Source: Tridacna crocea (Eukaryota > Mollusca > Bivalvia > Cardiida > Cardiidae). From it: 64,000 bases of DNA. Of the stretch, positions 2,882 to 43,665 are shown piece after piece (the stretch's first letter is position 1; every line of letters starts with the position of its first letter). The DNA lies in NCBI GenBank assembly GCA_943736015.1, contig OX031066.1, positions 22,895,127 through 22,959,126 of the forward strand, in the 5' to 3' direction. The translations under genes and the position numbers were made by a program. A model generated the notes under the pieces. The model had not been told where the DNA came from and ran no database searches. It saw only the letters and a program-made list of their open reading frames with translations.

Positions 2882-2934
2882 GGCGTGTAAAAACGAAAAC
2901 TTCAAAGTGCCATATACAGTAAAAGTTGCCTTTA

Positions 2935-4734: not shown

Positions 4735-5231
4735 ATAACTTTATTCAAGGGGAATTACTCCGAGTATGGGTATATTTGTACAATTTTATGTATTCTACTC
4801 AGCTTTTTTAATAAAGAGATTAATATGCAGTATAATATTTATCAAACACTCACCTGTCTTTAACTGTGTACGTTTGACTTCACATTTTTATCGATCGAAG
4901 TAAATCATAATTAATGAAAATCCTACAAAATATAACAAATGCCCAGACTAGACCACCTAAAAAAAGATTAAGAAAACATATATCCTTCACACATTCAAGA
5001 TAGAAATATATCTACATACAGTACCTCCATTTTACCGAATCTGTAATTTATAGAAACCCTTTTACATCCAGCACAGCGGAGTTTTTTTGTCATGCAGTGA
5101 GGTAATCTTTGAAAGCATTGTGTCAGTGAGATTTTTTAATGAGAGCAAACCGCAATGCAGACTTTCTGAGCCATTTGGACCACATGGCAAACGATAAGTT
5201 AAAGAATGTGTGATTAATAATTGAGTTCTTC

Positions 5232-5325
5232 TTAAACCCTTTACCACACAGTCCCAACTTTTAACAACCCTGAAAAAGAAGCATTTTGAAAACATTTTGG
5301 GAAAAGGAGAAAATGCTGGTAACTA
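5232..5325 (+). repeat. Family A MITE, left half only
   Basis: 'taaaccctttaccacac' to 'gaaaatgctggtaacta'; the right arm is missing. Confidence 0.7.
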
Positions 5326-5589
5326 AAACTACTTCTATATAAAGTACCAAAAAAATGAGAAATTCTTGTACCCCCCACAAAATGAATGTTTTCGGGGTTG
5401 TACTTGAATCATCTGCTTTGACTGTGTATCTGTCTGTGTGTCTGTCTATCTGTGTACAAAATACCAGTAATTTTGTGTCCCAAACTCCTCCTACAGTTTT
5501 CCTTCAACTGTATTGAAACTTTGCACATATATTAATCATAATTATATCGAAGATTTGCAAGATTCACTTTTCAAGTGTCAACTCTTCCT

Positions 5590-5945
5590 AGTTGGAGAAT
5601 ATATTTTTCGGGAAGAAGTTGCGAAGTATTTAACGAAAAAGTGGGGCAAGAGTCTTCCAGCATCGACACTCAGTGTTTTTTTTTTTAAAACAAAGAGAAA
5701 TGGACCAGTGCTTTGGAAGATTACAGGGTTCAGACTAGCACACCAAAACACATGAACCTGGATGAGAGCCTTTATCGTTGGTACTCAGACTTAAGCTCAA
5801 GAAATATTGTTGTAAGTGGTAATATGCTTGTCAAAAAGGCGAAGAAACTTGGCTGTGAGCTGGGGATTCAGGATTTATCTTATTCCAATGGATAGCCAGC
5901 CAGATTTAAGAAATGCCATAGTATTAGAGCATGCAAACCTAAATG
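5590..5945 (+). pseudogene. pogo/Tigger-type transposase N-terminus (CENP-B-like HTH) remnant
   Basis: Across two frames the sequence reads EVAKYLTKKWGKSLPASTLSV, a helix-turn-helix with an ASTLS recognition helix, then LDESLYRWYSDLSSRNIVVSG, MLVKKAKKLGCELG, and YSNG-stop-PARFKKCHSI. The second part matches the layout of the CENP-B-type HTH_Tnp_Tc5 domain, in which SNGWLxRFKxRH is conserved; here the Trp codon is a TAG stop. A frame shift near 5690, by the T-run, separates the two halves. The DDE catalytic domain does not follow. This is a decayed transposase, not a host gene. Confidence 0.78.
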
Positions 5946-6030
5946 TAAGAATGTTTTTCAAGTCCAACCCAAGTTTTTACTGGTTTTAACCATTCTTTAT
6001 CTCGACCAAATTCCTGTTGCCTTTTTTTTT

Positions 6031-7326: not shown

Positions 7327-7594
7327 CAGCAATTACACTCAGAGTATTTTTGTAAAATACATGCATATATATATTTATGCACAGAACTGCATTGTGAAAT
7401 AAATAAGGTTTATTTGATGAATTTCTATCTTTTTATCTTGTCATCCCTTTTTCCCCATTCCACACAATCCTGAGTTTTAACAACCCCAAATAGAGAAGAC
7501 TTTTGAAAACACCGTAGGCTTTCTAAAACATTGTAGGAAAAGAAAAAAAATGTTGGTAACTAGACGGGATGTCTTTGAAGAAAAAGAAGGCTTT

Positions 7595-7823
7595 TTAACC
7601 CTTTACAACCCAATAATGACTTTTAACAAGCTTGAGGAAGAAGCCTTTTGAAAGCACTGTGGGAAAAGGAGAAAATATTGGTAACCAGTATTTTCTCTTT
7701 TTCCCACAGTGTTTTCTACCCTATCAGGATCAAATTTCATTATTTGAGTCACATTTAAATTGTTGTCTGCAAATTCTTTCAAGTTGGGCAAGGTCAAAAC
7801 TTTGCCGTCTGGTAAAGATTTGA
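7595..7823 (+). repeat. Family A MITE with altered but still paired apex
   Basis: TTAACCCTTTACAACC to 'ctggtaaagatttgaa'. The apex reads 'atattggtaaccagtat' instead of 'atgctggtaaccagcat', so at least one stem pair changed on both sides. Confidence 0.85.
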
Positions 7824-7830
7824 AATATTG

Positions 7831-8020
7831 GAGGTTTTTGGAAACATTGTTGGAAAAGAAGAAAATGCTGGTGACCAGAAGAGAAGTCTTTCAGAGAAAG
7901 AGATGGCTTTTGAAAACATTGTTGGAAAAGAAGAAAATGCTTGTAACCAGAAAAGGAGAAGTCTTCTGAGAAAAAGACAGCGTTTGAAAACATTGTGGGA
8001 AAAGATGAAAATGCTCTGTA
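7831..8020 (+). repeat. Tandem array of family A left hairpin arms
   Basis: Paralog of 762-960, with three arm copies 'gaaaacattgttggaaaag', 'aagaaaatgct'. Confidence 0.75.
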
Positions 8021-8300
8021 GCTCAGCTGGTAACAACAATTAAGTGAGCATGTGGCTGGTACAAAATTCCAGCTTGCCATTTTCTGTCAGAGAATTTATA
8101 ATAGTAATTGCAACAGGATACATTCCTATCTTGCTTCTGAATAACCTGTGTATGATGCCCTAGATGGTTATGTTGGAAAGCAGCCAATGACTTAGGAACA
8201 CCATAGTGAAAAGTGCTGGGAAAAAAAAAGCTGGGAGAAAATGTATAGGTGAAGTGGTTGCAGCTTTGATATCATTGAAAATATTTGAATAGTATCAACT
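8013..8300 (+). mobile_element. tRNA-derived SINE
   Basis: Paralog of 950-1230: 'ctgtagctcagctggtaac' and 'ggtacaaaattccagc'. Confidence 0.65.
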
Positions 8301-8306
8301 CTTAGG

Positions 8307-8507
8307 CTGTCAAGTGCAACTCAAGGACCTTTTGCAGATAGTGTTGATCAAGATCAGATGGCACAGAACATGTAGTCTGATCTTTGATCTACACTGTCCA
8401 ATAAGAGCATGTCTAATCCTGAAAAAAATACCTTTGAAATAGCCAAATTTTGGTTTTTACTATCAGTTTGAATTTTTCATCTCAGTTAGTAGGATAAGGG
8501 TTGAATT
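8307..8507 (+). repeat. Family B MITE
   Basis: Paralog of 1233-1441 with palindrome 'gatcaagatcag' and 'ctgatctttgatc'. Confidence 0.8.
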
Positions 8508-9572
8508 TTAAACGAACAAATCGACTAGAACTATAAAAGTTCTGTACTATTTAGTATTAATAACATTTACAGATAGTGTTTGATCACAAGTTTCTCAAAA
8601 GAAGGACTTTGCAAAGGATATGAAATTATTGTGGCAAAAGGAAAATAGCGTGCAACCAGAAGTTTTCCTCAAGATTCTCATTATGTTTTCCAAAAGCCTA
8701 AACAGTGTCCCTAAGTATCGGGAATGTCTTGTAAAGGGTTAAATTGCATGAGAATTATTTGATTAAAATGTATAAGAAAGAGTCATATACAAGCATACTG
8801 TTTGACAAAAATTTTCATTGATTTAGATAAGCCACTGTGTAGTCTACATAATTATGTGCAGGTATGATTTTCCTTGATTCATATATGGCAAAAAAAAAAT
8901 AGATAAATAGCCATTTTTCTCAATTAGATACAGTTTAATTACAATATCGAATTGTATCTTTTATCAATCAACCCAATAAATGATGCCCATAAACTCGTAC
9001 TGCAAAACTATCGCAGCGGGGATTTTTTTTTTTTTTTACAAATGGTCTAGGGGAGAAAACTCGTACTGCCTAAGAGTAAGAGTAAAGCAAGAGTAGTCTC
9101 CCTTATAATGATCCGCCCTTCATCATTTCTCCTAGACGCTTGACGGATCAAAGTACTAAACACAACACTAGGAAAAAGGTGACATGCATGTAACGTTTTT
9201 AATCTGTTTTTGATGAAGATTTCAAATAATTTTAACAAAAGAGTGTCATTGATATTGATTTTAATACAAAACACTAGAATCTGAGTTTTAAATAAGATTA
9301 TTTCCTGCTTTTTCTACTTGAAAGTCGATTGGGATCACCGAGAAGGGTTTTAATCTTTGAAAATCACCATTTGCAAAGGTATGAGGTTTAGTTTAAAATG
9401 ACGCTTCACAGAATGTACGATCTGATTCCGAGTCTACACAATTAACTTGTTTCGTAAACCTTTCAGTGCAAAATAAATAAATTCAAATTCCAGCGGACGG
9501 CTCTAAACACATTCTATTGAAACTTACAAAGATTTTGTTTGTAGGTATAGGTTTGACTACACCAGCGGATGA

Positions 9573-9671
9573 CATAGATCAAAGATCAGACTGAACGTTC
9601 TGTGCAGTCTGATCTTGACTTATGCCGTCCGCAAAAGTCTCTGCTTTCGCCTATGGCGCCGAAAGGGTTAA
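9573..9671. repeat. Family B MITE, partial
   Basis: Paralog of 2507-2612. Confidence 0.72.
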
Positions 9672-9695
9672 GCCTATTTGGATAGAGTTAAAATC

Positions 9696-10532
9696 GGTTG
9701 AACTAATATTCTATAGAGTGAGGGTACGCTGTTTTGATATAGACTCGGTATAGACTCTAAAGAGCGAGGGTACGGTATGACAAAATGGAAACGCTGGCAT
9801 ATGTAGAAATATGTATCATATAGAAGATCTGCAGATCAAAATTAAAATTTAAATATCGTCCTAGATATCTGCAAATTAAGAAGAAAATGCCAATATTCAA
9901 GTTATTAAAATTGAACTACTTTATGCCAACTTTAATATCATTGCGCTAAAGCCCGGGACCTTTCGGAAATAGATTAATTTATCAATTTCATTGCCAGGCG
10001 TCTTCTTCTGAAAAGGACTGTTAATACACTTGAAATTACGTTTTTCAGCCCGTCTGGCGTTTTTTGCGATAAAAGAGCATATAAAGATTGCTTTGTCTGT
10101 TTGTATGTAGTTAGGACAGAGAACGTAGTGATGATGTAGTCTACTCCAACGTGTTAAGGTATCTAGAAAGCAGTATAAACTGTAAAGCGTTTAGGTACAT
10201 AAACAATATAAGCATGTTTAAAATTTAAAAAAAAATGCATGTTTCCCTTTTGACAGCGACAAAATGAATCGGCTAAAGCTTAATTGATAGTGTCCATGGT
10301 TGAAAGATAGAGCGTCTGCCACATAACCAAAGGGACTGGAGTTCAAGACACAGGAGCGGGGTTTTTTAAGTTTGGGATCTTTCATTGATCAACATATCCG
10401 GGTTAAGTACTGGTGTAGTTCCCAGGAAAGAGAATCAAGAGAGATTTGGATAATTTGTACAAACTTGTTTTTCAATCGCTGATAAATATATATGTTTAGT
10501 TCTTTTATGACCGAAATATGTTTAACATGCGA
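9696..10532 (+). other. No gene seen; a tRNA-like SINE head at about 10290-10370
   Basis: 'tggttgaaagatagagcgtc' and 'ctggagttcaagacac' look like tRNA A and B boxes, but no SINE body or tail is clear. The rest is AT-rich and unrecognised. Confidence 0.4.
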
Positions 10533-18941: not shown

Positions 18942-19468
18942 GTTAAAATCTTTATCAGATAGATATAGTTCCGGTACACTGTTCAAATCGTCGACAGAGG
19001 TTCGATGTCTAAAGCGCGTAAAAACGAAAACTTCAAAGTGCCATATATAATAAAAGTTGCCTTTACAGTCTTTGTAGATCATGATCAGACTGCACAGAAG
19101 GTGCAGTCTGATCTTTGATCTACACCGTCAACTTTCCTTAGACTTTCTGTACAATTTTATGCGACTTTAAAACCTTAATGTATAGTTATTTGTTTGGATA
19201 GCCTTTTTTAGACTGAAGTTATCTCTTGTTTATTTGGCGCTCTATGGGTTTGTAACGGGAGCGATTTGATATCCATTGGGATTCATTTTACTGACTAAAC
19301 TTTATCTTCCTACCGTATAAGCCAACTTATGTTTTGAAGTTGAGCTATAAAATTACCTTCCATATTTAGCGATATATGTCGATATCGTCATTGAATGAAA
19401 ACACAGTTTTGTTTGTAAGTTTGCGTTAAGTTGTCGTAGTGGTTATCATAAGTCATTAATTTCATTTA
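18942..19468 (+). repeat. Duplicated segment, second copy, left part (partner 2624-3328)
   Basis: Matches 2624-3328 except that the family A element of 2691-2881 is absent: here 'gttcgatgtctaaagcgcg' is uninterrupted (19000-19018). It ends at the TTA where the 4.7-kb long-TIR element inserted. Confidence 0.88.
19073..19132. repeat. Family B palindrome core
   Basis: Paralog of 2935-3005. Confidence 0.75.
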
Positions 19469-21290
19469 TAGGCTAAGGCCCAGATCAAAAAAGGGCTCTA
19501 TTTTTAATTTTTTTTCAATCCATCTGGTAGAAAAATTCAAATGGTACAGTGAGTTAGGATAACCTATTAGGGTCACTTTAAGCATGGATGCCAGATCTGA
19601 AAGTGGTGCAGATTTTTTTTATATGCTAATAAACGCGCCTACCCCAAATTTGCCTATAACAAAAATTAAACTTTTCCCCTTTTCACAATAATGGAAAAAA
19701 ACAATGAAACAATGCAATCTTTTTGACAAATCTTTTGAATTTAAGATGCTCATAAAAATCCACATTTACCTGTATGTAAGACTTTTATTAAATCAAGTCT
19801 GACCAATTTCACATATCGTAAAACACCTAATAAATGTTCCTAGCAGAAATGAATTGAAAACAATCTCTGAATTTCAGTCTTCACATTGAATGTGTTAATA
19901 TTTCTGGCTAGATTTTTTCACAGTTTTGGCTAGAGCTACTAGGACAGACGTAGAGGACCAGAATTAAGAACAGTTATGGAGTTTTAGCATTTAGCACCTC
20001 AAAAATGATCTATTTATGAGTGCAACAGTATAATTTGTTGTTGCACACTAACCTTTGATTTCGTTATTTCATTATATATTCACAACTGTAACCATAAGTA
20101 TGCCCAACACTAAGATTTGGCTATTTTCATTAATTAAGCTGCTTTATTTCCTTTGTTATTCTTAGTCTCCTACTCTGTTAATCTATTTCACTGATACAAA
20201 AGGGGATATGACTTGAAGCAATAGGGTCATGATGGCCCTGTATCGCTCCACTGGCTAATAAGTGAAAAAACTACAAGCCAAACATTATAGGCTAAGGCCC
20301 AGATAAAAAAAAAGCCCTATTTCTAATTTTTTTCAGTCCATCTGGTGAATTAGGATAGCCTATTAGAGTCACTTTAAGCATGGATGCCAGATCTGAAAGT
20401 GGTGCAGATTTTTTTTATATGCTAATAAACGCGCCTACCCAAAATTTGCCTATAACGTAAATTAGACTTTTCCTATGTTCACAAAAATGAAGCAGACAAT
20501 GATACAATGCAATCTTTTTTACAAATCTTTTTAATCTAAGGTGCTCATAAAAATCCACATTTATGTAAGACTTACAATGTATATTAAATCAAGTCTGACT
20601 AATTTCACATACCATAATTCACCTAATAAATGTTCCTTGCAGAATTAATTGGAACCAATCTTTGAATTTTCAGTCTTCACATTGAATCTGTTTATATTTC
20701 TGGCTAGATTTATTCACAATTTTGACTAGACCTACTAGGACAGACAAACAGGACAAAAATCAAGAAAAGTTACTGAGTTATAGCATTTAGTACCTCAAAA
20801 ATGATCCATTTATGAGTGCCACAGTATAATTTATTGTTGCACACTAACCTTTCATTTCGTTATTTCATTATATATTCATGTCCAACCATAAGTATGCCAA
20901 TACTAAGATTTGGATATTTTCATTACTTAAGTTTCTTTATTTCCTTTGTTATTTTTACTCTTCTATTCTGTTACTCTATTTCACTGATGCAATAGGGGAT
21001 ATGACTTGAAACAAGAGGGACATGATGGCCCTGTATCGCTCCAGTGGCTAATGAGTGAAAACACAACAAGCCAAACATTACAAATGCGGCCAACAAGTTT
21101 CAAACTTGAAGACATACAATAGGGTAAGGCCCAGGTCAAAAAAGGCCCTATTTTTTCATCCATCTGTTACTTTAGTTCACTGATGCAATAGGGGATCTAA
21201 CTTAAAACAAGAAGGCCATGATGGCCCTGTATCGCTCCACTAGCTAATAAGTGAAAACACTACAAGTCAAACATTACAACTCTGGCCAAT
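19469..21290 (+). repeat. Tandemly repeated left module of the 4.7-kb element
   Basis: A unit of roughly 815-830 bp starting 'aggctaaggcccag' is present at 19469, again at about 20290, and as a shortened copy at about 21120. Each ends with 'atggccctgtatcgctcca' and 'gccaaacatta'. The repeats carry copies of the element's own terminus, so the left end has been duplicated internally. Confidence 0.75.
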
Positions 21291-22590
21291 TGGTTTTAAA
21301 CTTGAAGGCATACATTTTTTTGTATGAAGTTCTACGAGAATGTTATGACCCCTTGACCCCTGGGCAAAGCCATTTTTTACCGCAAAGCTATAATTACTTG
21401 AAACTTGGTGGAGGTCCGTAAGATAAACTTCCATGTTACATAATATAGGATGTGTGGTATACCAGAAGGTTTTCAAAGTTTCCTAAAATAAATGCCATGT
21501 TAAACATGAGACCCATGAAACAGGGCTAAATTTGGTAGCCCTAGGCCTTACTATGCTTCGTAAAAAGATCATTAAAAAAGTTTTCACCACAAAAGCCCAG
21601 GTAAAACTTGTGACCCCTGGTGTAGGGACAAACTTAACCCCAAGGCTATAATTTGGGCCCTCCTGGTAGAGGCCAACTATATAAAGCTACATGCAACATT
21701 TGGTAGTCCAAGGCTTTGTGGTTATGTACAAGTAGAGGTTTTCCCAATATAAGCCAATATAAAAATTGTGACCCCCGGGGCTGTGCCAAATTTGACCCCA
21801 GGGCTATAAGTTGGGTACCCTTGGTACATGCCCACTTGATAAGATACATGCCAAATTTGATGGCCCAAGGCCCTATGGCCCGCCCTGGCGGCTCAGTGGT
21901 GATCGTGTCGGACTCATGACCTGATGGTTGTGAGTTCGATACCCGGTTGAGGTGAACTTTCTTTCCGTCGTATTTTCCCCTCTCACGTCTGCTGAAGCAT
22001 GTGAGAAAAGTAGTCGGTGGCTATGGAAAGAAAGCTTAGTACTGGTGTGAGAAAACCAGGAAACACATGTGCGTCACTGACCCCCATGATATGACCTTAG
22101 CTGTTGAAATAGTGTTAAACCCCAATGCAACCAACCAATCAACCAACCAACCAAGGCCCTATGGCTAGGGATCAGAAGGATTTTAAAATTTTACCTATAT
22201 AACCCCATATAAAACTTGTGACCCCCCCGGACAGGGGTCAATTTTGACTCCATAGCTATTATTTGAAGGAACACTGTAGAGGTTCGCTACATAAAACTAC
22301 ATGCCAAGTTTGGTAGCCCTGGGCCTTATGGTTTCGGATAAGAAGATTTTCGAAGGTTTCAATATTTTTCAGTTTTGTTGCCATGGCAACCAGAGTTTTT
22401 AAAGGAATCAGATTCTTTCAAGAAATTCTGAAGAAGGCCACGGCAGGATCATTTCTGTAAAGTTTCATCAAAATTGGATGGGTAGTGTCAGAGAAGATGT
22501 TTGAAATATAAGTTAATGCACGCATGGACAGACGCACAACGGACACCGGGCTATGACATAAGCGCCCTTGCCTTCAACTAGTGGAGCTAA
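21200..22590 (+). mobile_element. Tandem-core repeat element (relative of 13200-14490)
   Basis: It starts 'gatggccctgtatcgctcca' and ends 'aactagtggagctaaat'. The core has degenerate units of about 150-190 bp built around 'aaacttgtgacccc', 'gggctataatttggg' and 'tttggtagccctagg'. The tail has 'atggacagacg..ggacataagc'. The same layout recurs at 13200-14490 and, with a different core, at 49230-50640. Such central tandem cores resemble bivalve Helitron-derived elements; that assignment is inference. It is interrupted by a SINE at 21882-22155. Confidence 0.65.
21882..22155 (+). mobile_element. tRNA-derived SINE with 14-bp target duplication
   Basis: The head has an A-box-like 'tggcggctcagtggtgatc' and a B-box-like 'gttcgatacccgg'. 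The body includes 'ggaaagaaagctta' and 'gagaaaaccaggaaacacat'. The tail is (aacc/aatc)n. The 14-bp flank 'ccaaggccctatgg' occurs on both sides, directly showing target-primed insertion into the tandem-core element. No folded tRNA gene is implied. Confidence 0.85.
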
Positions 22591-22850
22591 ATACCTCTTG
22601 ATGACTTAAAGTAAACAAATGCGCAGTTCATTGAGCATAATTGTGACGTGTGATCAATCATCAGCTTCTTTGTTTGCTGCATTGACAGTACAGCTGCTTT
22701 GTGTGTGTATATATATTTGTGTGTGTGGGGTGTGGATGTGGGTGTTTTTCTGTTTTATTTTGAAATGTCATGATGTAACGGATTTATTTCCTACATAACA
22801 AATCTTAACTAGTCAACAAGACAGTATTTTGGTGCAAATGACTTTCCTTC

Positions 22851-23120
22851 ATTTCATGTTTAACTATTCAATAATTGTTTAGTTTATTTTTTCTCAAATA
22901 AAGGCACTAAGTACAAAACTTCTTTTTTAACACTTTTATGTGTCTGCACTGTAACATTTTGTGTCATTGCTGTAACACATGTGTCATTTCATGTTTAACT
23001 ATTCAATAATTGTTTAGTTTATTTTTTCTCAAATAAAGGCACTAAGTACAAAACTTCTTTTTTAACACTTTTATGTGTCTGCACTGTAACATTTTGTGTC
23101 ATTGCTGTAACACATGTGTC
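22851..23120 (+). repeat. Perfect tandem duplication of 135 bp
   Basis: 22851-22985 and 22986-23120 appear identical by eye, starting 'atttcatgtttaac' and ending 'taacacatgtgtc'. The surrounding repeats have diverged, so this duplication looks recent, or it is an assembly artefact. Confidence 0.9.
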
Positions 23121-24165
23121 GTTTATTATATAACAATGATAAAAACTGCTCATAAAATGAAGCCACGCCATTTAATTTAATAAAGAACATTCTGGAAACA
23201 AAACGGAAAAAACAGTTACATTTTCATTACAAACAGCTATTTACTAAATCTATATAATTTTTTCAAGGAATTAAAATAGTTGCAAAAAACTGATTTTCTC
23301 CGACATATAATGTGCCAAAATTTTGTTCCAAAATACTCAATTCAAATAAAACATATATGCGTTATACAGATGGTTCGAAATGCAATCTGACCTAAAAAAT
23401 ATCTAATTTTCTTAATTAGAATGGGATTTCTTTTACTTTACAATTTCGTTACATGAAGGACATGTCAATGTGTAATGACTGGCATTGCATCACCATAAAC
23501 AATATTCATGTGTGGAATATGCATTTTCCGTGTGCAGTACATTCTATTTGTACATAATTTTATAATTATAAGAAACCTTATCAAACAAAAAAAAAAAATC
23601 CAACTTCATTTTCAAAAATCATGTCTCCTACAATCTGCCATAACTATATATTAGCTCATAGTGGGTGGGGTAAAGGATAAGCAAGACCAAAACATAAATA
23701 CAATGCAGCAATTTAGTACAATAGTAAGCATTTAGTTCTCATCAAACCCTTCTACAAGAAGCTGAAACCCAAAGGTCTTAAATGATATTAAGTTGCTCAT
23801 GATTTTCAGTAAATGTATGCAAATTTGGTGGGTGGAGTAACACCAAGGCGCCCAATCTATATCTTCTCCTCCTGTAACTTAATTTTACCATTACTTATGC
23901 GCTTCACTGCCAATTAGAACTATTTGCAATCAATATACTCTGGCAGATATTGAAATTTTCTGGTTTGTACACATAAGCTTAATTGAATGCATTTTCAGTG
24001 GGTGGGGTAACAAAATGTCGTCTGAAAAAAATCTGCACCACTTTTGTTTCTGGCATCCACCCTAATTTGACTTCTATATAGCTGTACTATCACCTGGTAC
24101 CAATGAAATTTTTCTACCAGATGGATTGAAAAAAAATTGAATCCAGCTGGCCAGGCCTTAGACTA

Positions 24166-25993
24166 TTACTGAACATCTATTACCTCAATGATATCTGTTA
24201 CCAAATGTTGCATTTTTATTGTAGCGCGATCTTACATTGAATTCCAGATTCAAATATTGGCGGTTATAATTAATATGAAATAAACGGAAGACTACCTGCC
24301 GCCTGTTAAGAAAAATAAAAAGTTTGACTTTTTTTTTTTGGCATGCCGTTTTTAGAACGGTTAAAATTAACAATTTGACCTTATGAACTGATTGAAATTC
24401 GTTACACCTAGATGAAAAATTATCGTTCGTCAAACGGATAGACTGTACAGACGTAACCGTGTTTATTCGTCCTCGGTTTTATGCTTGCTCTTGACTGGCA
24501 TTTTTTGTAAGGTGCACAGGCATATAAGGACCAGACACAGGAAGAGGCGGTTCCATGTCCCGCCTTCTGTACATTCTATGCGCATACTTTAGCCGCAGTA
24601 ATTAAGCACCTCCGAAAGTAGCCAAAGCGAGGTTTTGGGCGGAGTCTTTGTTTTGTAGGCGTACCATACAATGGTATGCACGTACTCACGACGTCAAGCA
24701 GTTTGAAATAAGCCCTTTCCTCTTCAATAAGGGAGACAACTGTAGCATTACTTATTACAAAATTTTGTACGAGTTGTTTCCCTTTAACCATTGGTCGTTC
24801 ATCAATCTCTCGCAAGACCCTTGTATTTCGAATGAATATCAGCCCGGAACAAAAAGCCAAGCAAAATTGCAGATAAAATTGACGAAAATAAGCGATAGTA
24901 GCAACAATTAAACAAATTCAGGAGAAAAAGCAATGTAAATTGGTGTTACAAACAAAAATTAATGCGAAAGGAACAAACCGGAAATAGCAAACTATTAAGC
25001 TTGGTAGAGAAGACATGACACTATTTCCTTGATTTCTTTACGATTCTACGTATGCCAAGGGTTGTAAATAGCATTTTTCTTTTTTTCAAGTAAACACGTG
25101 TATATCTTTGCTTATGAACTATATCAAAGACAATAAAACAGTAAACATGAACGGGAATAATCAGTACAGTATCCGGATTGTAGATATATTCGGATAAAAG
25201 TTTGAATTGTGAGAAAAATTTGAAATTTGTTCAATACAACACTTTACGTTAGTTGGAAAGAAAATAAAGAAAATAGCATAACTGAGAGAGGTTGGTATAA
25301 ATACAGTTGTAAAAACTTGTTTCTATAGAATAGCAGTCATTTGAACACCCGGTAATTTCGACACCCTGTCATTTCGACACATTTTGGTCATTTCGATCCT
25401 CGGTGGAAAAATGTTTACAAACGTTGGTCATATCGACACCTTATTTTTTAGAGCACTTTTTAAACTCGACCTTTTATTATCAAGTTACTTTAATTTCTTT
25501 TAAAGATGACATATCATTATAATTTTTTGTGGGTGTGTGATCAAAACAGGTTTTTAACCCTTTCCTAAGCGACAAACTATTGGACTAGAACAAATTGAAA
25601 GCGTTGCAGACGACAATTTAACTCTTGCTGAAAAGATGATTTCTGTCTACGATAGGGTAGAAAACATTGTTGGAAAAGGAGAAAATGCTGGTTACCAGCA
25701 TTTTCTCCTTTTCCCACAATGTTTTCAAAAGCCTACCATTCCAGACTGGAAGATAGAACTTTGCTGGTTACCAGCATTTTCTCCTTTTCCCACAATGTTT
25801 TCAAAAGGCTACCATTCCAGACTGGAAGAACCAGCATTTTCTCCTTTTCCCACATTGTTTTCAAAAGGCTACTATGTCAGACCCGTAAAAACCAGGGATT
25901 GTTTGGGAAAGGGTTAAATAATTTTATTCAAGGGGAATTACTCTGAGTATAGGTATATCTGTACAATTTTCTGTATTCTACTCAGCCTTCTTA
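24166..25993 (+). repeat. Duplicated segment, second copy, right part (partner 3326-4812)
   Basis: Collinear with 3326-4812, including the CCGCCC/GGCGGG-containing stretch at about 24540-24650 (3720-3830 in the partner). It contains one extra block, the family A element at 25554-25917. No confident coding frame is conserved between the two copies. Confidence 0.88.
25554..25917 (-). repeat. Family A MITE with internal triplication; TTAA on both sides
   Basis: TTAACCCTTTCC at the left and GGAAAGGGTTAA at the right, inserted at the TTAA seen empty at 4731. The right hairpin arm 'cagcattttctccttttccc', 'acaatgttttcaaaag', 'ctaccattccagactgg' occurs three times, making the copy about 360 bp rather than 230. 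Confidence 0.92.
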
Positions 25994-26249
25994 AGGTGGC
26001 CCTTCAGATTTTGGGACAAAAATTTTACAAAAAATGCAAAAAAATTATCCTTATTAGCCAAACCCGAATCTTCCAAGCCATTAAACGATGATGAAAGATT
26101 TTCCCCGGAAATTATTGATCATGATTCCATGTTAGACCCGCCTTTTTTTTAATGGAAGGAGGTTATAAAAGGGGAGGCTACTCTCTATTAACTTGAACAT
26201 TTAATACCTTAGTAAATAAATTAATTTTTAATAATGAATCCTGACTTTG

Positions 26250-26462: not shown

Positions 26463-26780
26463 GGTTTAGGGTTTTTCGATAGACTGTATCGATAGGTTTA
26501 AATTTTAACTTACACCGGTTCTTAAAGTTTCGGTGTGACTGTTTGTACTGGTTGAAAAAAAGACTATTCCAAGGAAGGTGGGTGAAATTAATAATAAGGG
26601 AGAGTACTCTTCATAACTAATGGATAAACAGGCTGTACAAGTTTTCTCCCTTTGACCATAAAATCACAATGGAATCTGATGACCATTTCCCCCGAGACCG
26701 ACGCTAAATCAAACGTTCATATTTTTAAAAAGAGCTTTAATTTCTCTCATTTTCTTTTATTCTTATCCAATTTTGATCTA

Positions 26781-27008
26781 TTAACTCATTACCAAACGAC
26801 AATATTTTAGGCTTGTCCAAATTGAAAGCATTTGCAGACGACAAAGTAAAAGCGACTGAAAATTCAAATTTGCTTTGTGAAGGGTAGAAAGCATTGTGGG
26901 AAAAGGAGAAAATGCTGGTAACCAGCATTTTCTCCTTTTCCCACAATGTTTTCTAAAGGTTTCTTTCTCAGGGGCGTCAAAAGTAGGGATTGTGTGGTAA
27001 TGGGTTAA
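26781..27008 (-). repeat. Family A MITE, full length
   Basis: TTAACTCATTACCAAACGAC to GTGTGGTAATGGGTTAA. The hairpin 26893-26957 is perfect around 'gctggtaaccagc'. Confidence 0.92.
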
Positions 27009-27139
27009 ACGTCTATTTCCTCCCCAAGATATGTTGATTATTATCTTAATTTGCGATTTTACTGTAGATCTAGATCGATTGAAATTTGATTTTATGTGTA
27101 GTTGGCCAGTTAGGACAGGAAACCTACCTTCAATTGTAT

Positions 27140-29198: not shown

Positions 29199-29482
29199 TA
29201 ACTCTTTACCTAACGACAAATTTTTGGACTGAACCAAACTCAAAGCATCTGCAGACAACAAATTGAATCTTGTTAATATGATGATTTCTGACTTTGATAA
29301 GGTAGAAAATATTGTGGGAAAAGGAGAAAATGCTGGCTACATTTTCCCTCAATTTAATCTTGTTAGTATGAGGATTTCTGATTTTGATAGGGTAGAAAAT
29401 ATTGTGGGAAATGAGGAAAATGCTGGTTACCTTTACCCACAATTTTTCTATGGGCTTCTTTTTAGAGTCGTTAAAGTTCTGG
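29199..29482 (-). repeat. Family A MITE with internal duplication
   Basis: TTAACTCTTTACC at the left. The block 'aatcttgttaatatgatgat'/'ggtagaaaatattgtggg'/'aaaatgctgg' occurs twice, replacing the right arm. Confidence 0.75.
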
Positions 29483-34526: not shown

Positions 34527-34755
34527 TTAACCCTTTACCCCATAAGGCATTTCTATAGTATCTCTCATTGACCCTAACTAACAGCAAGGATGGAGCCGTT
34601 TTTTATGTATATATGACACCTTTTGATAGCATAAAAAACATTGTGAGAAAAGGTGAAATTGCTCGTCACGAGCAATTTCACCTTTTCTCACAATCTTTTC
34701 AAAAGGCTCCTACAAGCAGTGTGTAGAAATGAGTATCTATGGAGTAAAGGGTTAA
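34527..34755 (+). repeat. Family C TTAA-hairpin MITE
   Basis: TTAACCCTTTACCCCATAAG to GGAGTAAAGGGTTAA. The central stem has 'gaaattgctcgtcacgagc' at the apex. The subterminal sequences 'catttctatagtatctc' and 'gagtatctatgg' are also partly inverted. Confidence 0.92.
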
Positions 34756-35622: not shown

Positions 35623-35837
35623 AAAAGCATACTGTTCAATTGTGAATGCTAAATGAAATTCCATAAATTTCCACCAATCTACCTTTCTAGTGAAGTTATA
35701 TGTTTATTAAGCAATGCACTTAACTTTTTTCCGTCAATATAGGCTATAATCATCTAAGTGAAAATGAAAACAAAATTATTTCTATCTGCCAAAAAAAACT
35801 GTGGCATAATTACCAGTATTATGTTTTCAATAAACAG

Positions 35838-36140
35838 GAGAAGAAGCTTGTTGTAGGGGCTATAGATTTTGGTACCACATATTCTGGATGGGCGTTCTCC
35901 TTCCTCCACGACTACAACTGCGACCCGACGAGAGTGACCACGAATCACTGGTACTCGGGAGGAAACCTAGTGTCTGAAAAAACGCCTACCTGTGTACTGA
36001 TTCAGCCTGATGGGCGAACTCTGGAAGCCTTTGGGTATGAAGCAGAAAATAGATATTTAGAGTTAGCAGAGGATGGGAGACACAAGGAGTTCTATTTCTT
36101 CAAAAAGTTTAAAATGGCTCTTCATAAAAAACTGGATGAG
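35838..36140 (+). CDS. HSPA12: HSPA12-like exon a: phosphate-1 loop (internal exon, phase 0 at both ends)
   Basis: The exon follows an acceptor ending 'aaacag' and runs into donor 'gtaagaag'. It encodes 101 codons beginning EKKLVVGAIDFGTTYSG, the N-terminal nucleotide-binding strand of the HSP70 fold, and ending HKKLDE. There is no Met before the conserved block, and family proteins usually carry 10-30 residues ahead of it, so a separate upstream first exon is expected. A Met-initiated reading from inside the exon would lose the phosphate loop and is unlikely. Confidence 0.9.
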
Positions 36141-39100
36141 GTAAGAAGTTTGACAGTATTTTGAAAGAGAGAGAGACATAGAAAGAGAGACAGAGAGAGA
36201 GACTTGGCGAGACATTGCGTTGCTGATAAAGATGTTGGTCGTGCGTTTCAAGATACATCTAAACATTTAACTGTTTCCACTTTCAGTTGAAAAGTTAGAA
36301 AATATGAAATCAGTATTTCACTGGTTGGAACCATTAAATATCAAAAGATATTCAACTAATTATTTCTCGATAAAGTAATCCAAAACGTGAAAAAAAAGGT
36401 ACATACATGTATTTGATTCACACCTACAATATATGCACGAGGTTGTTTTTGTTCACAGGTCGTTGACAGGTATATCACTATCGAGGATGCAATGGGTCGC
36501 CTGCTTCTAGCAATGGACGTTTTCGCCTTGGCCATTGAGTATCTGGTGAACAGCTTAATGAGAGTGGGCCAGGATAGAATGCTAGGACTTTCCAAGGATG
36601 ATTTTCAGTGGGTGATTACTGTACCTGCCATCTGGTCAGATTCTGCGAAACAGTTCATGAGAGAGGCAGCCGTCCAGGTATGTCACAGAACCTCCGTCGC
36701 ATTTTTAACCCCATGGCTGCTAAGCGCAACTCACTGGCTTTTTGCGGACACTGTAGATCAAGATCAGTCTGCACAAAATGTGCAGTCTGATCTTGAATCT
36801 ATATTGTCCAATAAGGAGATATCTCTTTCCCGTAAGAAAGCATTTGAAATGGCAAAATATTGGTCTTCACTATTGCTTTGAAAGTTTCATTTCATTTATT
36901 TAGCTGGATAAGGTCAAAATGGCTCTATGTACTATATATCAATTGTGAGGGAATGTCTAAAACTGACGCCAATCAGTGATTACTTCCTTGAAATATGACC
37001 AGTACTGGTGCCAACTGTATATGGTTCTAGACTGCTCCAATTATTTGGGTTCTATGTGAACTGAAAGCTTCCAATCTGAAATGCCTGATATTAAGCCTCT
37101 GTTTCTCACAACAACCTTTGTCTTTGTGATCAATGTTAAATGGACCAGATGAACAGGAGATACATATTTACAATATTCCATAAATAATGCTTAGAACAAA
37201 TAAACAATAAATCTTTAGACTGAATACTTGTTAGAATAGGATACCCATGTCAAAAAATCCAGCCTTCAATGTATCTTTCATAAGCGTCCATGAGACTTCA
37301 TAATCGTTACTTCAGGTAAAGAATACCACAGTGGTTTAGCCCCAGGCATTTGTCATAAAAAAAAAGATAATGATAATGCCGAGATATACAAAGCCAAGCT
37401 CTGCCAAAAGGGGTTGTGATGCATTAGACCAAGAAAACCACCCTATGATTATGTATCAATAAAACCCATTTATGCCTAGGTCACAAGTAAAACGAGCACT
37501 GGAAGATTTCTTGCAACTTCGCTGATTCAAAGGTTTCAGACATCATCCGGGCACCGTACGATTTTAAGGTATTTTGCTCAAGCAGTCACAAATCAAACGG
37601 GCATCGGACAGCAGTTTCTTTTGAAATGCCATGCATGCACTTTTCAGTTCAGAAAGGCACTGGGCAGCAACCGGAGGGTCATCAGGCTGCGATCCGACAG
37701 CAACCGGATGGACATCATTCCAACTTTGTGCTGCTGTAAAGCTAGCTACAGAGGCATGTCATAATGTCTGAGGGTGACACGCCTCTGTAGCCACGTTTTG
37801 AGCCACACAGTCCTCACTCTGCGGCCTGGCCCAGCAAGTTCCTGATCGTAAACAGCAGCTACTGCTATTACATATATCTGCCTTCGGCGAGCAGCTTGAA
37901 ATCTCTCTTAACCCTTTACCCCATAAGGCATTTCTATGATATCTCTAATTGACCCTAAATAACACCAAGGATGAAGCTGTTTCTTATGCATATATGACAC
38001 CTTTTGATAGCATAGAAAACATTGTGGCAAAAGGTGAAATTGCTCGTCACAAGCAATTTCTTCTTTTGCCACAATGTTTTCCAAAGGTTCCTACAAGCAA
38101 TGCGTAGAAATGAGTATCTATGGAGTAAAGGGTTAATGAAGGAAAATATTCAACAGATTTTGTGGCGGTACATGTGTAGGTGCCATTTTCACTTCAGAAC
38201 TGATAAATGAGATAAGATATCAATATACACTTTTATGATATAATCATCATGTCGCTAAAGTATATGTGGTTTGCAATCTGGTCACCGTCCGGAAAGATTT
38301 AACAAAATCAGTGCCGCACCGCGATCTGGTGGTCACTGGACGGTGGGCGTACAAATATTCATAATCAGGCGATACTCGCCTGGTCGGGCGCTGTCCAGTA
38401 TCTGAAGGCATTGTCCAGTCACCAGACAGCACCAGGACAGAGCCCAGACGATGAGTTAATGGGCTTTCCCATGGCCAAAGAATCATCCAATTATAACTTT
38501 GTTATAAACCTTGAACAGGTGCCGGATGGTGTCTCAAAACGATTGCACCAAAATCTCCTGAAAAACTTGCCGTCTGCCGGCAGGTGGTTATTTGTGACTG
38601 GGGCATTAGTGTTAACAATCGACTTGAGCTGGAAGATGCCGGGTCCTTTGATATGCAGAAAATTTACAAATAGCAAATAGGTTCGACCTAAGTCAGCGGA
38701 CATGTGATTGCGCAGGCTGACATTGGTCGATACTTTTTGTAGATGCATTAACCCTTTAGCACACAATCCCGACTTTTAACAACCCTGTTGAAGAAGCCTT
38801 TTGAAAACATTGTTGGAAAAGAAGAAAATGCTGGTAACCAGCATTTTCTCCTTTTACCGAAATGTTTTCTACCCTCCCCAATTCAAACTTTAGATTTTTT
38901 GTCACTTCTATTTTGTTGTCTGCAAATGCTTTCAGTTTGTACCAGTCTAAAATTTTGTCATATATAATGAGCCCAATTTTCACTGAGCATATCTCGTATA
39001 TAAAATATTAATTAACTCTTCACTGGTTGCCAGCATTTTCTCCTTTTCCCCCAATGCTTTATATACACTATACACTTCTTTCTTAGGGTCATTAAAAGTT

Positions 39101-42100
39101 GAGATTGTATGGTAAAGAGTTAACTCCTAACCAAACAAGTCCTGGTTTTCAGAACTTCAAAAAGGAAAGCTTTTGAAAACCTCGTGGGAAAAGGAGAAAC
39201 TGCTGATAAAGAGTTAAGCAAATGGAAATGATTGGAATTAAATAAATGAATTTTAACCCTTTCCCAAATATACGACAACAGAATTAGCTTTTCCAGGTAA
39301 AGGGTGAAACATGCCATATCAAGTGTTCTTGTAGGGAGGACAGAAGGTTTCAAATGATGACGAAACACAGAGATAATTGTTCAAACTAATTCTTTGGTTT
39401 CCCAAATATTTGGATATATTTTAACACTTTACCACACAATCCCTACTATTGACAACACTGAGAAAGAAGTCTTTGGAAAACATTTTGGGAAAAAGAGAAA
39501 ATGCTGGTAACCAGCATTTTCTCCTTTTCCCACAATGTTTTCTACCCTTCACAAAACAAATTTCAAATTCTCAGACACTTTTATTTTGTTGTCTGCAAAT
39601 GGTTTCGATTTGGACAAACCTAGAATTTTGTCATTTGGTACTGAGTTAAATTTGTGTAAATTATACATGTACTTTTCACCAACAGGCAGGTATAGACAAT
39701 GACAATCTTCTCATAGCTTTGGAACCTGAAGCCGCTTCAATATACTGTCGTCACATACCATTTGAGAGATCACAAGTTGATACAGAGGCAGCATTTTTGT
39801 CATTGCAACCGGAAACTAAGTATATGATCATAGATGCAGGAGGTAAGACATTCTTCTTTTGAGTACTGTCAACATCTCTCTCAAAATTGTTACACGAGTT
39901 GTGATACAATATTTTATTTTATTTCATGCTTTCTGGTAGGATATCGAGAAATAGCAATGAAAATATTTTTCAATCGTACACTGGTACCACCAGTGAAAAT
40001 ATCGATTTTCACGTTCTTGTTGCCTAGGTAAATTGCGAGTGCCTCACAACCGGATGGTAAATATGACGTCATATACCTTAGACTTCTAACGCTTGAAATA
40101 ATATTGTAATGCATTGCTATGCGGGAGGGATACACCACAGGGAATAACGGAAAATAACTGTACTGGATTTTAATAAAACTCCTCCCAGAAACGGTTAAAA
40201 GCATGAAATAAGTAGAATATTTTTTTTTTCTTTGAAGATCGAAATTTATTTCATCGAGTGGACACCGTCGGTAATATTTTCACAAGTGGCTTCGAAATTT
40301 ATTTCATCAAGTGGACACCATCGGTAATATTTTCACAAGTGGCTGTGCCACTCATGAAAATATTACCGATGGTGTCCACTCGATGAAATAAATTTCGATT
40401 TTTCACCGAAAAGAACAAAATATCCTCTATATATGGAGGACTGGTGATGATTAATATGGTATCATCACAAGTGACGATATAGTTTTAGAATGTTTGCCGG
40501 AACTACTTTTTTCCTGATACTGCCCATATTAATTGTACCATTCTTGATAGTTATTAGAAATAGGAATTCAACAAATAGGATAATGAACTGGTTGTGTGTG
40601 ATATTAAAAATCTGTCATTTAAGTGGGGTTTGATACAGTTAAAAAACTTGTCCTTTGGACTCAGTTTTTCAACAGCATGTCATCCCATCCTTCGGACTCT
40701 TTTTTTTTTCAACTGTTTCGCACCCTATTCCAGTGACAGATATTTCATATCGTACACAACCAGTTGATTATTCTATTTATTAAATTCCTAATTCCAGTTG
40801 ATTATCCTCTATTCAATAGTTAAACATCAAATCTCTTTACCCATTTATATACCAATTCTTTTTCAGCAATATTTCGTCATTGTACTTCCAAAATCTTGTA
40901 ACTACAGCTTGTTACAAGCTGTAGTTATGAGGTTTTGGGAGTACACCGACAATATGCAAATCATAGCAGGCTCCTAGCTGTAATGAATTTCCACAGCTAG
41001 ATACCAGCCCTTACATGTGTTTGTTTGTATGGTATTTAACTCTTTACCAAATGACAAAATATCAGGCCAGTCCTAATTGAAAATATTTGCCAAAAAACAA
41101 AATTAGTGCAACTCAAAAATTGAAATTTGTTCTTGAATGGGTGAAAAACAATGAGAAAAAAGAAGACAATGCTCAGGTAACCAGCATTTTCTCTATTTCC
41201 CACAAAGTTTCCAAAAGATTTCTTTTTCAGAGCCGTCAAAAACACCAGGATTGTTTCGTAAAGAGTTAACAGTGTTCCTGTGTTAGATATCGCAACAGCC
41301 AGTGCACTTATGGTGCTTTCCTAGAGTTTCTCTTCAATACCTTATTATTATATCATTTCCAAGCCACTGGCTGCTTTCCCACCTAACAATATTTGAAAGT
41401 GCTCAGGTCTTTGGATAAATGTCCCTCTGAAATGCATTAACTCTTTCCCATACAATCCTTGATAGAAGCCTTTTGAAAACACTGTGGGAAAAGGTAACCA
41501 GCATTTTCTCCTTTTTCCACAATGTTTTCTACCCTTCCCAAAACAAATTTCAAATTTTCAGTCATTTTTATTTTGTTGTCTGCCGGCACTTTCAATTTGG
41601 ACCAGTCTAAAAGTTTGTTGTTTGGTAGAGAGTTAAGCATTACTTCAAATACTTTTATGAACAGTCTGATCTTAGGTCTACAAAGGTCTAAATTTATCAC
41701 ATACTCTGGCTAAAACAGTGTTTAAATTGCATTTCTAAATATTCACTCCCACATTGTAACACCTTTTTTTTTTCTATTTATAAATCATTCTTAACCCTTC
41801 ACTCCAGATACTCATTTCTACGCACTGCTTGTAGGAGCCTTTGGAAAACATTGTGGCAAAAGGTGAAATTGCTCGTGATGAGCAATTTCACCTTTTGCCA
41901 CAATGTTTTCTATGCTATCAGAAGGTGTCATATACACATAAGAAACAGCTTCATCCTTGCTGTTATTTAGGGTCAATTAGAGATACCACAGAAATGCCTT
42001 ACGGGGTAAAGGGTTAAAGTTAAAAAAATGTGTACATGTTTCTACATTTTCAATGGAAAGCCTTTTCAGTTGGTTAGACGTTCATGTCCAAGATAAACAG

Positions 42101-43198
42101 ATTCATAGATCTTCTCTTTTAAACTTATGTTTTCCTGCAGGTGGAACAGTCGACATCACAGTTCACAAGCTGAATCAGACTGGGGGACTTGAGGAAGTGT
42201 TTTCCGCCAGTGGTGGGGGTTGGGGAGGCTCTGTTGTGGACATAGAATTCGAGATGTTGCTGATCGAAATCACCAATAAATCAGTATATGAAGAGTTCAA
42301 AACGCAACACACGGACGACTGGGTTGATCTGTGGCGAGACTTTGAAATGAAAAAGAAAAGTGCTTCACCCCAAATGGAAAAGAGAATTGTTGTCAAAATA
42401 CCGACATCTTTATTTCAACTTTTTCGTGAAACAACCAAAAAATGTGTTGAAGATCAAATAGCAGCCTCTAGATATGCAGGGTCTATAACAGTAACACTAG
42501 ATAAACTGATCATGGAGTCAAAAGTGTTCAAAGAATTATTTACCAAGTCTGTTGATAAAACTATCCAACATTTAAAAAGCACATTCTCGAGAAAAGAAAT
42601 GAAAGAAATTTCTGCCATTTTGATGGTGGGTGGATTTTCTGATTCGAAAATACTACAAAACGCAGTGAAAATGGAATTTAAACCAATTAGGGTCATTTGC
42701 CCAGGTGATGCTGTAACAGCGGTGATGAAAGGTGCCGTACTTTTTGGCCATGAGCCTGATGCTATCGCTGCCCGGGTACTTAAGTTTACATATGGATACG
42801 AGGCAGCTGTTCCTTTTGTCGAGGGGATTCATCCGCAACGTCTGAAGATTGAAAACGAACATGGGACGCAATGTGCCAATGGCTTTCTCGTCTATGCGAA
42901 ATGTCATGATACAATTAAGTGTGGAGAAAGTCAAGTTTCTGTCTGCATATCGCCTCAGTTTTCTCATCAGACTTGGATAAATATTCCTATCTATGCTACA
43001 GACCGTAAACCACCACAATACATTGACGCAAGTCTTACCAGAGTAGGTGAAATAACTGTTGAACTCGAAGACCATGATTGCGACATAGACAGAGAGGTGG
43101 AATTATCATTAAAGTTTGACAGTACTGAAATTGTGATTCAGGGGAAAGATACCAAAACCGGACACACAGTGAAGTCAAAAATAGATTTTCTAGGTTGA
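35838..43198 (+). CDS. HSPA12: HSPA12-type heat shock 70 kDa protein 12-like, four visible exons, 5' exon not found
   Basis: Joined exons 35838-36140, 36459-36677, 39686-39842 and 42141-43198 give 1737 nt: 578 residues and a TGA. All junctions are GT-AG and keep frame. HSP70/actin-fold ATPase landmarks appear in order: phosphate-1 loop AIDFGTTYSG (residues 8-17), WVITVPAIWSD (152-162), LEPEAAS (186-192), phosphate-2 loop DAGGGTVD (224-231), GGGWGGS (251-257), adenosine-type loop ILMVGGFSDSKIL (386-398), and GAVLFGHEPDAI (424-435) followed by TYGY. This spacing is typical of HSPA12A/B rather than canonical HSP70: there is no full substrate-binding domain and no C-terminal EEVD. Family members are cytosolic atypical HSP70 proteins and form large families in bivalves, where they are linked to stress and immunity; the exact client here is unknown. 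Visible length is slightly short of the usual 600-680, as expected if the first exon holds the Met. All ATPase signatures look intact, so I see no sign of a pseudogene. Confidence 0.9.
36164..36205 (+). repeat. GA microsatellite in HSPA12 intron 1
   Basis: Interrupted 'gagagagagac' runs immediately downstream of exon a. Confidence 0.85.
36459..36677 (+). CDS. HSPA12: HSPA12-like exon b: WVITVPAIWSD motif
   Basis: The acceptor is 'gttcacag' and the donor 'gtatgtca'. Its 73 codons start VVDRYITIEDAMGRLL and end QFMREAAVQ. WVITVPAIWSD followed by AKQFMREAA is a hallmark of the HSPA12 subfamily, corresponding to the VPAYF region of HSP70. Intron 1 is 318 bp and contains a GA-rich microsatellite at about 36164-36205. 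A family B MITE begins only 27 bp after the donor. Confidence 0.9.
36705..36917 (+). repeat. Family B MITE at the start of HSPA12 intron 2
   Basis: Left TTAACCCCATGGCTGC, palindrome 'tagatcaagatcagtctgc' with 'gcagtctgatcttgaatcta', and the right end 'ctggataagg'. It starts 27 bp after the exon b donor. Confidence 0.85.
37480..38720. repeat. Unclassified GC-richer repeat in intron 2, split by a family C MITE
   Basis: 37480-37900 and 38240-38720 stand out in base composition. They repeat phrases such as 'gcagcaacc', 'ggacagca' and 'accggatgg', and hold a local inverted pair 'gctacagaggcatgtc' with 'gacacgcctctgtagc' (37741-37795). Probably transposon-derived; no coding frame is recognised. 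Confidence 0.4.
37908..38136 (+). repeat. Family C MITE in HSPA12 intron 2
   Basis: TTAACCCTTTACCCCATAAG to GGAGTAAAGGGTTAA. The apex 'gctcgtcacaagc' has a mismatch. Confidence 0.92.
38748..38975 (+). repeat. Family A MITE in intron 2
   Basis: TTAACCCTTTAGCACAC at the left. The right end has decayed to 'gtcatatataatgagccc'. Confidence 0.85.
39012..39123 (-). repeat. Family A deletion derivative (112 bp)
   Basis: TTAACTCTTCAC joins directly to 'ggttgccagcattttctcc' and ends GGTAAAGAGTTAA, so one hairpin arm is gone and both termini remain. Confidence 0.8.
39120..39217 (+). repeat. Family A deletion derivative (98 bp) sharing a TTAA
   Basis: Starts with the same TTAA that ends the previous copy. 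It runs to 'gagaaactgctgataaagag', ending in TTAA, and lacks the right arm and flank. Confidence 0.75.
39252..39309. repeat. Minimal family A-like derivative (about 58 bp)
   Basis: 'ttttaaccctttcccaaa' at the left and 'ccaggtaaagggtgaa' at the right with almost nothing between: little more than paired termini. Confidence 0.6.
39421..39649 (+). repeat. Family A MITE next to HSPA12 exon c acceptor
   Basis: TTAACACTTTACC to 'ggtactgagttaa' with a perfect apex. Only 36 bp separate it from exon c. Confidence 0.92.
39686..39842 (+). CDS. HSPA12: HSPA12-like exon c: LEPEAAS to phosphate-2 loop
   Basis: The acceptor is 'caccaacag' and the donor 'gtaagaca'. It contributes 52 codons plus one base: AGIDNDNLLIALEPEAAS, a stretch of less conserved sequence, then KYMIIDAG and the first base of the next Gly codon. 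The split Gly lies inside the DAGGGTVD loop. The acceptor is only 37 bp downstream of the TTAA that closes a full-length family A MITE (39421-39649). Confidence 0.88.
39905..40437 (-). mobile_element. Family D MITE in HSPA12 intron 3, expanded
   Basis: Reverse of 31618-32066. The left end 'tttcatgctttctggtagg', 'actggtaccaccagtg', 'ttgttgcctagg' and the palindrome at 40232-40405 are present. One arm block ('cgaaatttatttcatc', 'agtggacacc') is duplicated in tandem, lengthening the stem region. Confidence 0.8.
40558..40800. repeat. Long foldback repeat in HSPA12 intron 3
   Basis: 'taggaattcaacaaatagg' and 'aactggttgtgtgtgatat' pair imperfectly with 'atatcgtacacaaccagttg' and 'ctatttattaaattcct'. 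Arms are about 90-100 nt around a 'tccttcggactc' centre. Confidence 0.7.
40875..40947. repeat. Hairpin in HSPA12 intron 3
   Basis: 'gtacttccaaaatcttgtaa' and 'ctacagcttg' pair with 'caagctgtag' and 'ttatgaggttttgggagtac'. Confidence 0.75.
41036..41269 (-). repeat. Family A MITE, diverged, intron 3
   Basis: TTAACTCTTTACCAAATGAC to 'ttcgtaaagagttaa'. The apex is disrupted ('gctcaggtaaccagc'). Confidence 0.85.
41270..41430 (-). mobile_element. SINE fragment, reverse orientation
   Basis: 'gccagtgcacttatgg', 'ccaagccactggctgctttc' and 'cccacctaac' match the reverse complement of the 54960 SINE body. Confidence 0.55.
41437..41636 (+). repeat. Family A MITE, intron 3
   Basis: TTAACTCTTTCCC to 'ggtagagagttaa'. 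The left arm is shortened ('ggaaaaggtaaccagc'). Confidence 0.87.
41791..42017 (-). repeat. Family C MITE near the terminal exon acceptor
   Basis: TTAACCCTTCACTCC to GGGGTAAAGGGTTAA; apex 'gctcgtgatgagc'. It ends 123 bp before the terminal exon of HSPA12. Confidence 0.92.
42141..43198 (+). CDS. HSPA12: HSPA12-like terminal exon
   Basis: The acceptor is 'ttttcctgcag'. Two bases complete the split Gly, then GTVDITVHKL follows, and the frame stays open to TGA at 43196-43198 (about 352 residues). It carries the GGGWGGS segment, a charged helical insert (WVDLWRDFEMKKKS), MVGGFSDSKIL, VICPGDAVTAVMKGAVLFGHEPDAI, a TYGYEAAVPF segment, and a beta-rich C-terminus ending SKIDFLG. The open frame continues upstream to an ATG at 42053, but that part reads through the intron. 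I see no AATAAA within about 400 bp of the stop; the 3' flank is taken over by MITEs from 43210. Confidence 0.92.
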
Positions 43199-43212
43199 CC
43201 ATTTCTTTTCAT

Positions 43213-43290
43213 TAACACTTTACCACACAACAAAAATTTAGCCTTGTCCAAATTGAAAGCATTTGCAGACGGCAATTTTAGTGTGGCTTA
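43213..43290 (-). repeat. Family A fragment after the HSPA12 stop
   Basis: 'ttaacactttaccacac', 'tgtccaaattgaaagcattt', then cut short. Confidence 0.65.
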
Positions 43291-43515
43291 AACCTTTCCC
43301 AAACGACAAATTTTAGACCCTTCCAAACTGAAAGAGTTTGCAGAAGACAATTTTAGATTTTGAGAAAATGGCAGAAAGTTCTCAAAAAGGGAAGAAAACA
43401 CTGTGGGAAAGGGAGAAATTGCTCATTACAAGCAATTTCTCCTTTTCCCACAGTGTTTTCAAAAGACTTTTACTGCAGACATGTAAAAACCAGGGCTTGT
43501 CTGGGAAAGGGTTAA
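43288..43515 (-). repeat. Family A variant with 'gctcattacaagc' apex
   Basis: 'ttaaacctttcccaaacgac' to 'gggaaagggttaa'. The apex resembles family C while the flanks are family A, so it is intermediate between them. Confidence 0.85.
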
Positions 43516-43539
43516 ATGGTGTAATTTTTCTTTGATCCA

Positions 43540-43665
43540 GTAGAAAACATTGTGGGAAAAGGTTAAAATGCTGCTTATCAGCATTTTTGTCTTTTCCCAC
43601 AATGTTTTCAGAGGGCTTCTTTTCCAGGAGCATCAGAAGTAGGCATTGTGTGGTAAAGGGTTAAT
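43540..43665 (-). repeat. Family A MITE, right part
   Basis: 'agtagaaaacattgtggg', apex 'gctgcttatcagc', right end GGTAAAGGGTTAA. Confidence 0.8.

Follow-up and report, generated by a model that had tools for sequence, protein, structure and literature searches.

The locus at 25554–25917 of the window (the whole stretch of 64,000 nucleotides analysed here, whose content we take, judging from its letters, to be eukaryotic) raises the question of whether a short element was inserted there with duplication of a TTAA target, and what kind of transposase would have moved it. The preliminary description had read the site as an element bounded by TTAA on both sides, and had paired it with a paralogous locus that carries one TTAA and matching flanks.

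Occupied and empty sites in a segmental duplication

Both parts of that reading were confirmed by the alignment of the occupied site with the empty one. Two TTAA tetranucleotides, at 25554–25557 and 25914–25917, enclose an insert proper of 356 bp (25558–25913, plus strand) with the ends CCCTTTCC ... GGAAAGGG. At the empty paralogous site, a lone TTAA is present at 4731–4734 and both flanks meet there. The background frequency of TTAA is 537 of the 64,000 window positions (0.84%). When 4600–4812 was aligned with 25430–25993, the comparison proposed in the preliminary description, the flanks met at TTAA and the left homology reached far beyond this range. For a local alignment against the subject region 4500–5000, the insert and one TTAA were removed from 25323–25994; the remaining sequence matched 4500–4811 with an ungapped joint and two 1-bp gaps elsewhere. 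Meanwhile, the alignment containing one long gap placed 360 bp exactly at the TTAA joint. The boundaries of the element and the duplication of TTAA are established, and the pair provides a good, clean example of TTAA insertion by an ordinary kind of element.

The left flank (24166–25557, plus strand) aligned with 3326–4734 at 88.3% identity over 1,415 columns, and the right flank (25914–25994, plus strand) aligned with 4731–4811 at 91.4% over 81 columns. In addition, 2900–3328 matched 19031–19468 at 91.4% over 440 columns. Because the left homology comprises 1,415 columns and a further 440, the two loci are a segmental duplication and not a chance match. On the right, the homology spans no more than 81 bp and ends at another TTAA (4808–4811 and 25991–25994), past which the two copies showed no match. 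This shortness is what could be said for unrelated sequences that look alike around TTAA by chance or through an assembly artefact. Such an origin is very unlikely in view of the long left homology, the joint that is exact to the base, and a second independent case at 43288 described below.

The region contains other differences and repeats. A stretch of ~4.7 kb at 19469–24165 is absent at 3326–3328, which makes it a second occupied/empty difference in this segmental duplication; it apparently has a TTA duplication and the inverted ends TAGGCTAAGGCC / TAGTCTAAGGCC. Another local duplication, 92% identical, relates 1700–2666 to 8766–9733, and paired matches make 430–1675 and 7458–8741 look duplicated as well. 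Among the matches listed, 4812–6000 resembles other parts of the window solely through sequence of the element family to which the insert belongs (family A).

Family A and its inserted copies

The family A profile gave 87 matches in 64 kb, covering 14,189 bases (22.2% of the window); in this count, matches that a better one covered over more than half their length were dropped, parts of an element were counted apart, and family B cores (see below) were included. The 35 near-full copies measure 200–235 bp, 25 of them 227–231 bp, and family A copies are 65–93% identical to the consensus. The family is small in unit length, homogeneous in size, present in many copies and devoid of a transposase gene.

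Exact TTAA was found at 29/47 5' ends and, on the 3' side, at 40/57 (four of these 57 being family B ends), against the background of 0.84%. With up to one mismatch allowed, the counts were 38/47 and 53/57, the background for this looser test being 9.1%. Close relatives without TTAA at most of their ends, which the preliminary description had named as evidence against its reading, were not seen. It should be noted that the profile reaches TTAA partly through the choice of seeds, nine copies having been selected with TTAA. Both ends carried TTAA in 17 of the 35 near-full copies, and the flanks outside it had no sequence in common except for one column (position seven of the 3' flank, T in 23/35). 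With the ends located to the base, copies of this family, which occupies about one fifth of the window, could also be delimited in other places, dated and assigned to their transposase. At 39120–39123 and 61691–61694 and, less surely, at 52607–52610 (GTAA), a single TTAA appears to be common to adjacent family A copies, as if the TTAAs at element ends were reused as targets.

The copy at 25554 is atypically long, 364 bp including both TTAAs, because its core and part of its 3' arm are tandemly duplicated at 25686–25882 on the plus strand (a 76-bp unit matching at 98% and a 60-bp unit at 92%). Its palindromic core (25660–25726) has a 32-bp stem with one mismatch and a 3-nt loop. CCCT is present at both tips, and the terminal inverted repeat is imperfect, 12 of the first 15 bases matching between the ends when counted by eye. 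Tandem repeats of 60–90 bp containing the MITE core were observed at 771–950, 7837–8020 and 29261–29445 as well as at 25686–25882. One frame stays open across the MITE for 119 codons (25558–25914). Similar peptides presumably occur in annotated animal proteins, where they may be annotation errors derived from MITEs.

A search for further empty sites was performed with 42 joined-flank queries, namely those of the 35 near-full copies, the 25554 copy, the family A copies at 33354 and 38748, and four family B elements. Matches across the joint were obtained in 11 of 42, and the true empty counterparts were those of 25554 and 43288. The other nine (528, 7595, 30472, 52380, 52599, 61118, 61466, 61691 and 63584) were judged, without individual alignment, to reflect family or core sequence in the flanks.

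In the second case, a copy with TTAA at both ends (43288–43515, plus strand) is nested in another family A copy (43212–43664, plus strand), as indicated by the joined-flank match and by alignment. After removal of the nested copy, the joined parts of the host aligned end to end with the uninterrupted copies at 26775–27012 and 58425–58662, and with a third copy over most of its length. The site of insertion reads TGAA in these three relatives and TTAA in the host. The polarity is clear here: the uninterrupted state is the state of the family. The 25554 copy clustered with 43290–43514 and 63585–63809 (FastTree support 0.913), which suggests that both demonstrated insertions are of a single subfamily.

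Class, transposase and order of events

The preliminary description had held that TTAA together with CCC/GGG ends fixes the boundaries and the class without a transposase. The part on boundaries and TTAA duplication stood; the part on class was put too strongly, as Kolobok elements too duplicate TTAA (PMC9587614) and 15 of 29 5' tips read CTC. Because of the Kolobok duplications, the argument for the class rests on the terminal bases. According to the available parts of the sources, the hallmarks of piggyBac elements are TTAA and CC[C/T]T with terminal inverted repeats of about 12–19 bp (PMC2872659), and their most conserved start is CCCTT (PMC10813416), while Kolobok termini are 5'-RR...YY-3' (PMC9587614).

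The imperfect terminal repeat of the family consensus, in which 12 of the first 15 bases match between the ends (by eye), fits the range of 12–19 bp. Among ends with an intact TTAA, two pyrimidines were found at the start of 25 of 29 5' ends and 38 of 40 3' ends (63/69), and two purines at none of the 69. The 5' tips read CCC in 8/29 and CTC in 15/29, and the 3' tips, read inwards, CCC in 25/40 and CTC in 9/40. Thus, the CCC/GGG ends claimed earlier are true of the 25554 copy and fail as a rule for the family. The motif CC[C/T]T was present at 7/29 5' ends and 20/40 3' ends, the others being mostly CTC or CCCA.

A Kolobok transposase mobilising the MITE would account for the TTAA duplication seen in both cases here, and the lineage KolobokP is described as especially rich in bivalves, to which mollusc Kolobok is almost confined (PMC9587614, PMC10294476, in the parts available), a point that has weight for a bivalve host alone. 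We nevertheless consider it very improbable, given that the RR start expected of Kolobok occurs in 0/69 ends with an intact TTAA and a YY start in 63/69. The element is of a known kind, and the family is a new member of that kind. The classification that we favour is a non-autonomous piggyBac/TTAA-type MITE, the piggyBac type being probably the best class and strict membership pending a match to a transposase.

The element is far too short to encode a transposase. When the window was searched in six frames with four signature patterns of piggyBac transposases, the loosest pattern alone gave matches, two in number, both in frames that have stops close by and lack the other patterns. A Pfam search on 10 stretches, taken from 266 stop-to-stop frames of ≥60 aa, yielded no transposase, though a decayed one could be missed by the 10 stretches and four patterns. 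Scans of IMG/VR and GTDB genomes for exact matches to the core gave 0, and 25300–26200 had no match in phage records; both results are uninformative on animal genomes. A literature search with the literal end, core and peptide strings returned matches that look unrelated by their titles and opening lines.

A possible host gene was noted near the MITEs. The frame 41981–43195 matched HSP70 below the Pfam cut-off (E 0.0094, 14.6 bits vs 20.6), and may be HSPA12-like. The start of an upstream frame, 35724–36161, resembles an HSP70-type phosphate loop and is without a Pfam match. Together the two frames may belong to an HSPA12-like gene whose introns contain MITEs. Judging from the first frame and from the abundance of MITEs, the host may be a mollusc.

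We propose that a piggyBac-type transposase, encoded elsewhere in the genome and acting in trans, would have cut out a source copy at its CCCTTT/AAAGGG ends, and that the excised copy would then have been joined into a TTAA within one copy of the segmental duplication, with TTAA remaining on either side. Such a mechanism would account for the insert at 25554 as well as for the nested copy at 43288. The duplication would have come first at the 25554 locus and the insertion second, and the number of copies would have grown by the same cut-and-paste route. We estimate the probability of trans cut-and-paste into a TTAA of one duplication copy, including the putative transposase, its class, the order of events and the growth in copy number, at about 0.88.

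The reverse order supposes loss: the element would predate the duplication, and the 4731 site would have been emptied later, through a deletion between the TTAAs or a precise excision of the piggyBac type. Excision of piggyBac is described as usually precise (PMC2872659, in the parts available), and its product would look identical to an empty site. The divergences point the same way, as the 25554 copy is 83.3% identical to the family consensus over 174 positions and 85.2% over 88 (15–17% off) and the left flanks are only ~12% apart. Because of these values, insertion after duplication needs a source that had already diverged; the source copy may, however, simply have differed from the consensus. 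An occupied/empty pair alone cannot separate insertion from precise excision, and polarity therefore comes from the nested copy at 43288. The nesting of a sister copy in a family A copy indicates that members of the subfamily still moved when other copies were already in place, and loss at 4731 leaves this case, with its uninterrupted family state, unexplained. We consider loss unlikely and retain gain by insertion as the preferred order.

The palindromic core and related systems

The consensus of family A contains a core with a 32-bp stem and a 3-nt loop. Across the 35 near-full copies, the mean share of the commonest base was 0.93 in the core versus 0.78–0.85 in the arms and 0.86–0.88 in the terminal inverted repeats. 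A related palindromic core is present in family B, represented by the element at 34527–34755 (plus strand) and by those at 37908–38136, 41791–42017 and 58001–58222, all with TTAA at both ends. The consensus sequences of the two families, that of B being built from four elements, are both 229 bp long, with the core at the same position. Their arms show little resemblance, being identical at 34/87 and 18/36 positions, values reached in 0.7% and 0.1% of 5000 shuffles.

The two consensus stems of 32 bp differ in eight bases, all of them in four pairs of which both partners have changed and the pairing is kept. The chance that eight random changes would all pair is ~1e-7 by a simple formula, and this was seen in 0 of 200,000 simulations. 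Covariation was analysed in 14 cores of our own choice, three from the four family B elements (58001 was left out for its damaged core) and 11 from the 35 near-full family A copies and the 25554 copy. In these, 10 cells were changed on both sides versus 2.2 in shuffles (0/500 were as high, which is not a probability as the sequences are related), and slid registers of the same cores gave 0–1 such cells. Pairs with a change on both sides numbered 5 versus 2.0 in shuffles (5/500). The single copies of family B depart from their consensus: at the four pairs that distinguish A from B, the B form is found in 2, 2, 3 and 2 of three copies, respectively. The copy at 34527 has G-C at the first of these pairs and A-T at the adjacent pair, both still paired, and at least one pair is broken in each of the copies at 37908 and 41791.

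Among family A copies, 133 one-sided changes were counted versus 16 double ones, nine of which were complementary (4.0 on average in shuffles, with 9 reached in 13 of 1000). There is no clear conservation of the palindrome among these copies; the dominance of one-sided changes is what would be expected for dead copies. Tentatively, the core may be a working part and not debris, its hairpin or cruciform either being selected in lineages that transpose (with a role in binding of the transposase, in strand folding or as RNA) or being repeatedly perfected by template switching. Both selection of the hairpin and template-switch correction fit the core data. A limited literature search on conserved palindromic MITE cores, which supports no claim of absence from print, returned, by titles and opening lines of the papers listed, work on mobile palindromes and conserved RNA structures of bacteria and no such MITE study; a second search ranked the coral CMITE paper first. 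If the compensating changes hold genome-wide, they could be used to test for what reason some TTAA MITEs have an internal region conserved above their other parts, which is left open for the coral CMITEs in the available part of PMC2872659.

These CMITE families of Acropora (PMC2872659, by the description available) share with the present elements the TTAA duplications, CC[C/T]T ends (here at both tips of the 25554 copy and at a part of the family ends), an occupied/empty allele pair, tandem arrays, and several families with a common internal region conserved above the terminal inverted repeats. They differ in being ~100 bp long versus ~229 bp here and in having arrays of whole elements, whereas the tandem units here are internal. 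In addition, the shared core here is a near-perfect 32-bp palindrome, and the main text on CMITEs, as available, contains no palindrom-, hairpin or secondary structure.

The piggyBac superfamily transposons (PMC10813416, PMC11707139) are described in the parts available as sharing TTAA duplication, with CCCTT as the top conserved terminal motif; unlike them, the element here is without a transposase, and CTC occurs at 15 of 29 family A 5' ends. The T2-MITEs and Xmix of Xenopus, which are of the Kolobok type, likewise target TTAA, and an internal segment is amplified in Xmix, but their terminal AGGRR consists of purines and the tips here are pyrimidines (PMC6004289, in the part available). Finally, the bivalve pearl-family MITEs DTC84 and CvA, compared by their description in PMC5139131, whose main text as available is without TTAA, are modular mollusc MITEs with internal tandem repeats, as found here, and DTC84 also has a conserved palindrome, located near the repeat junction.
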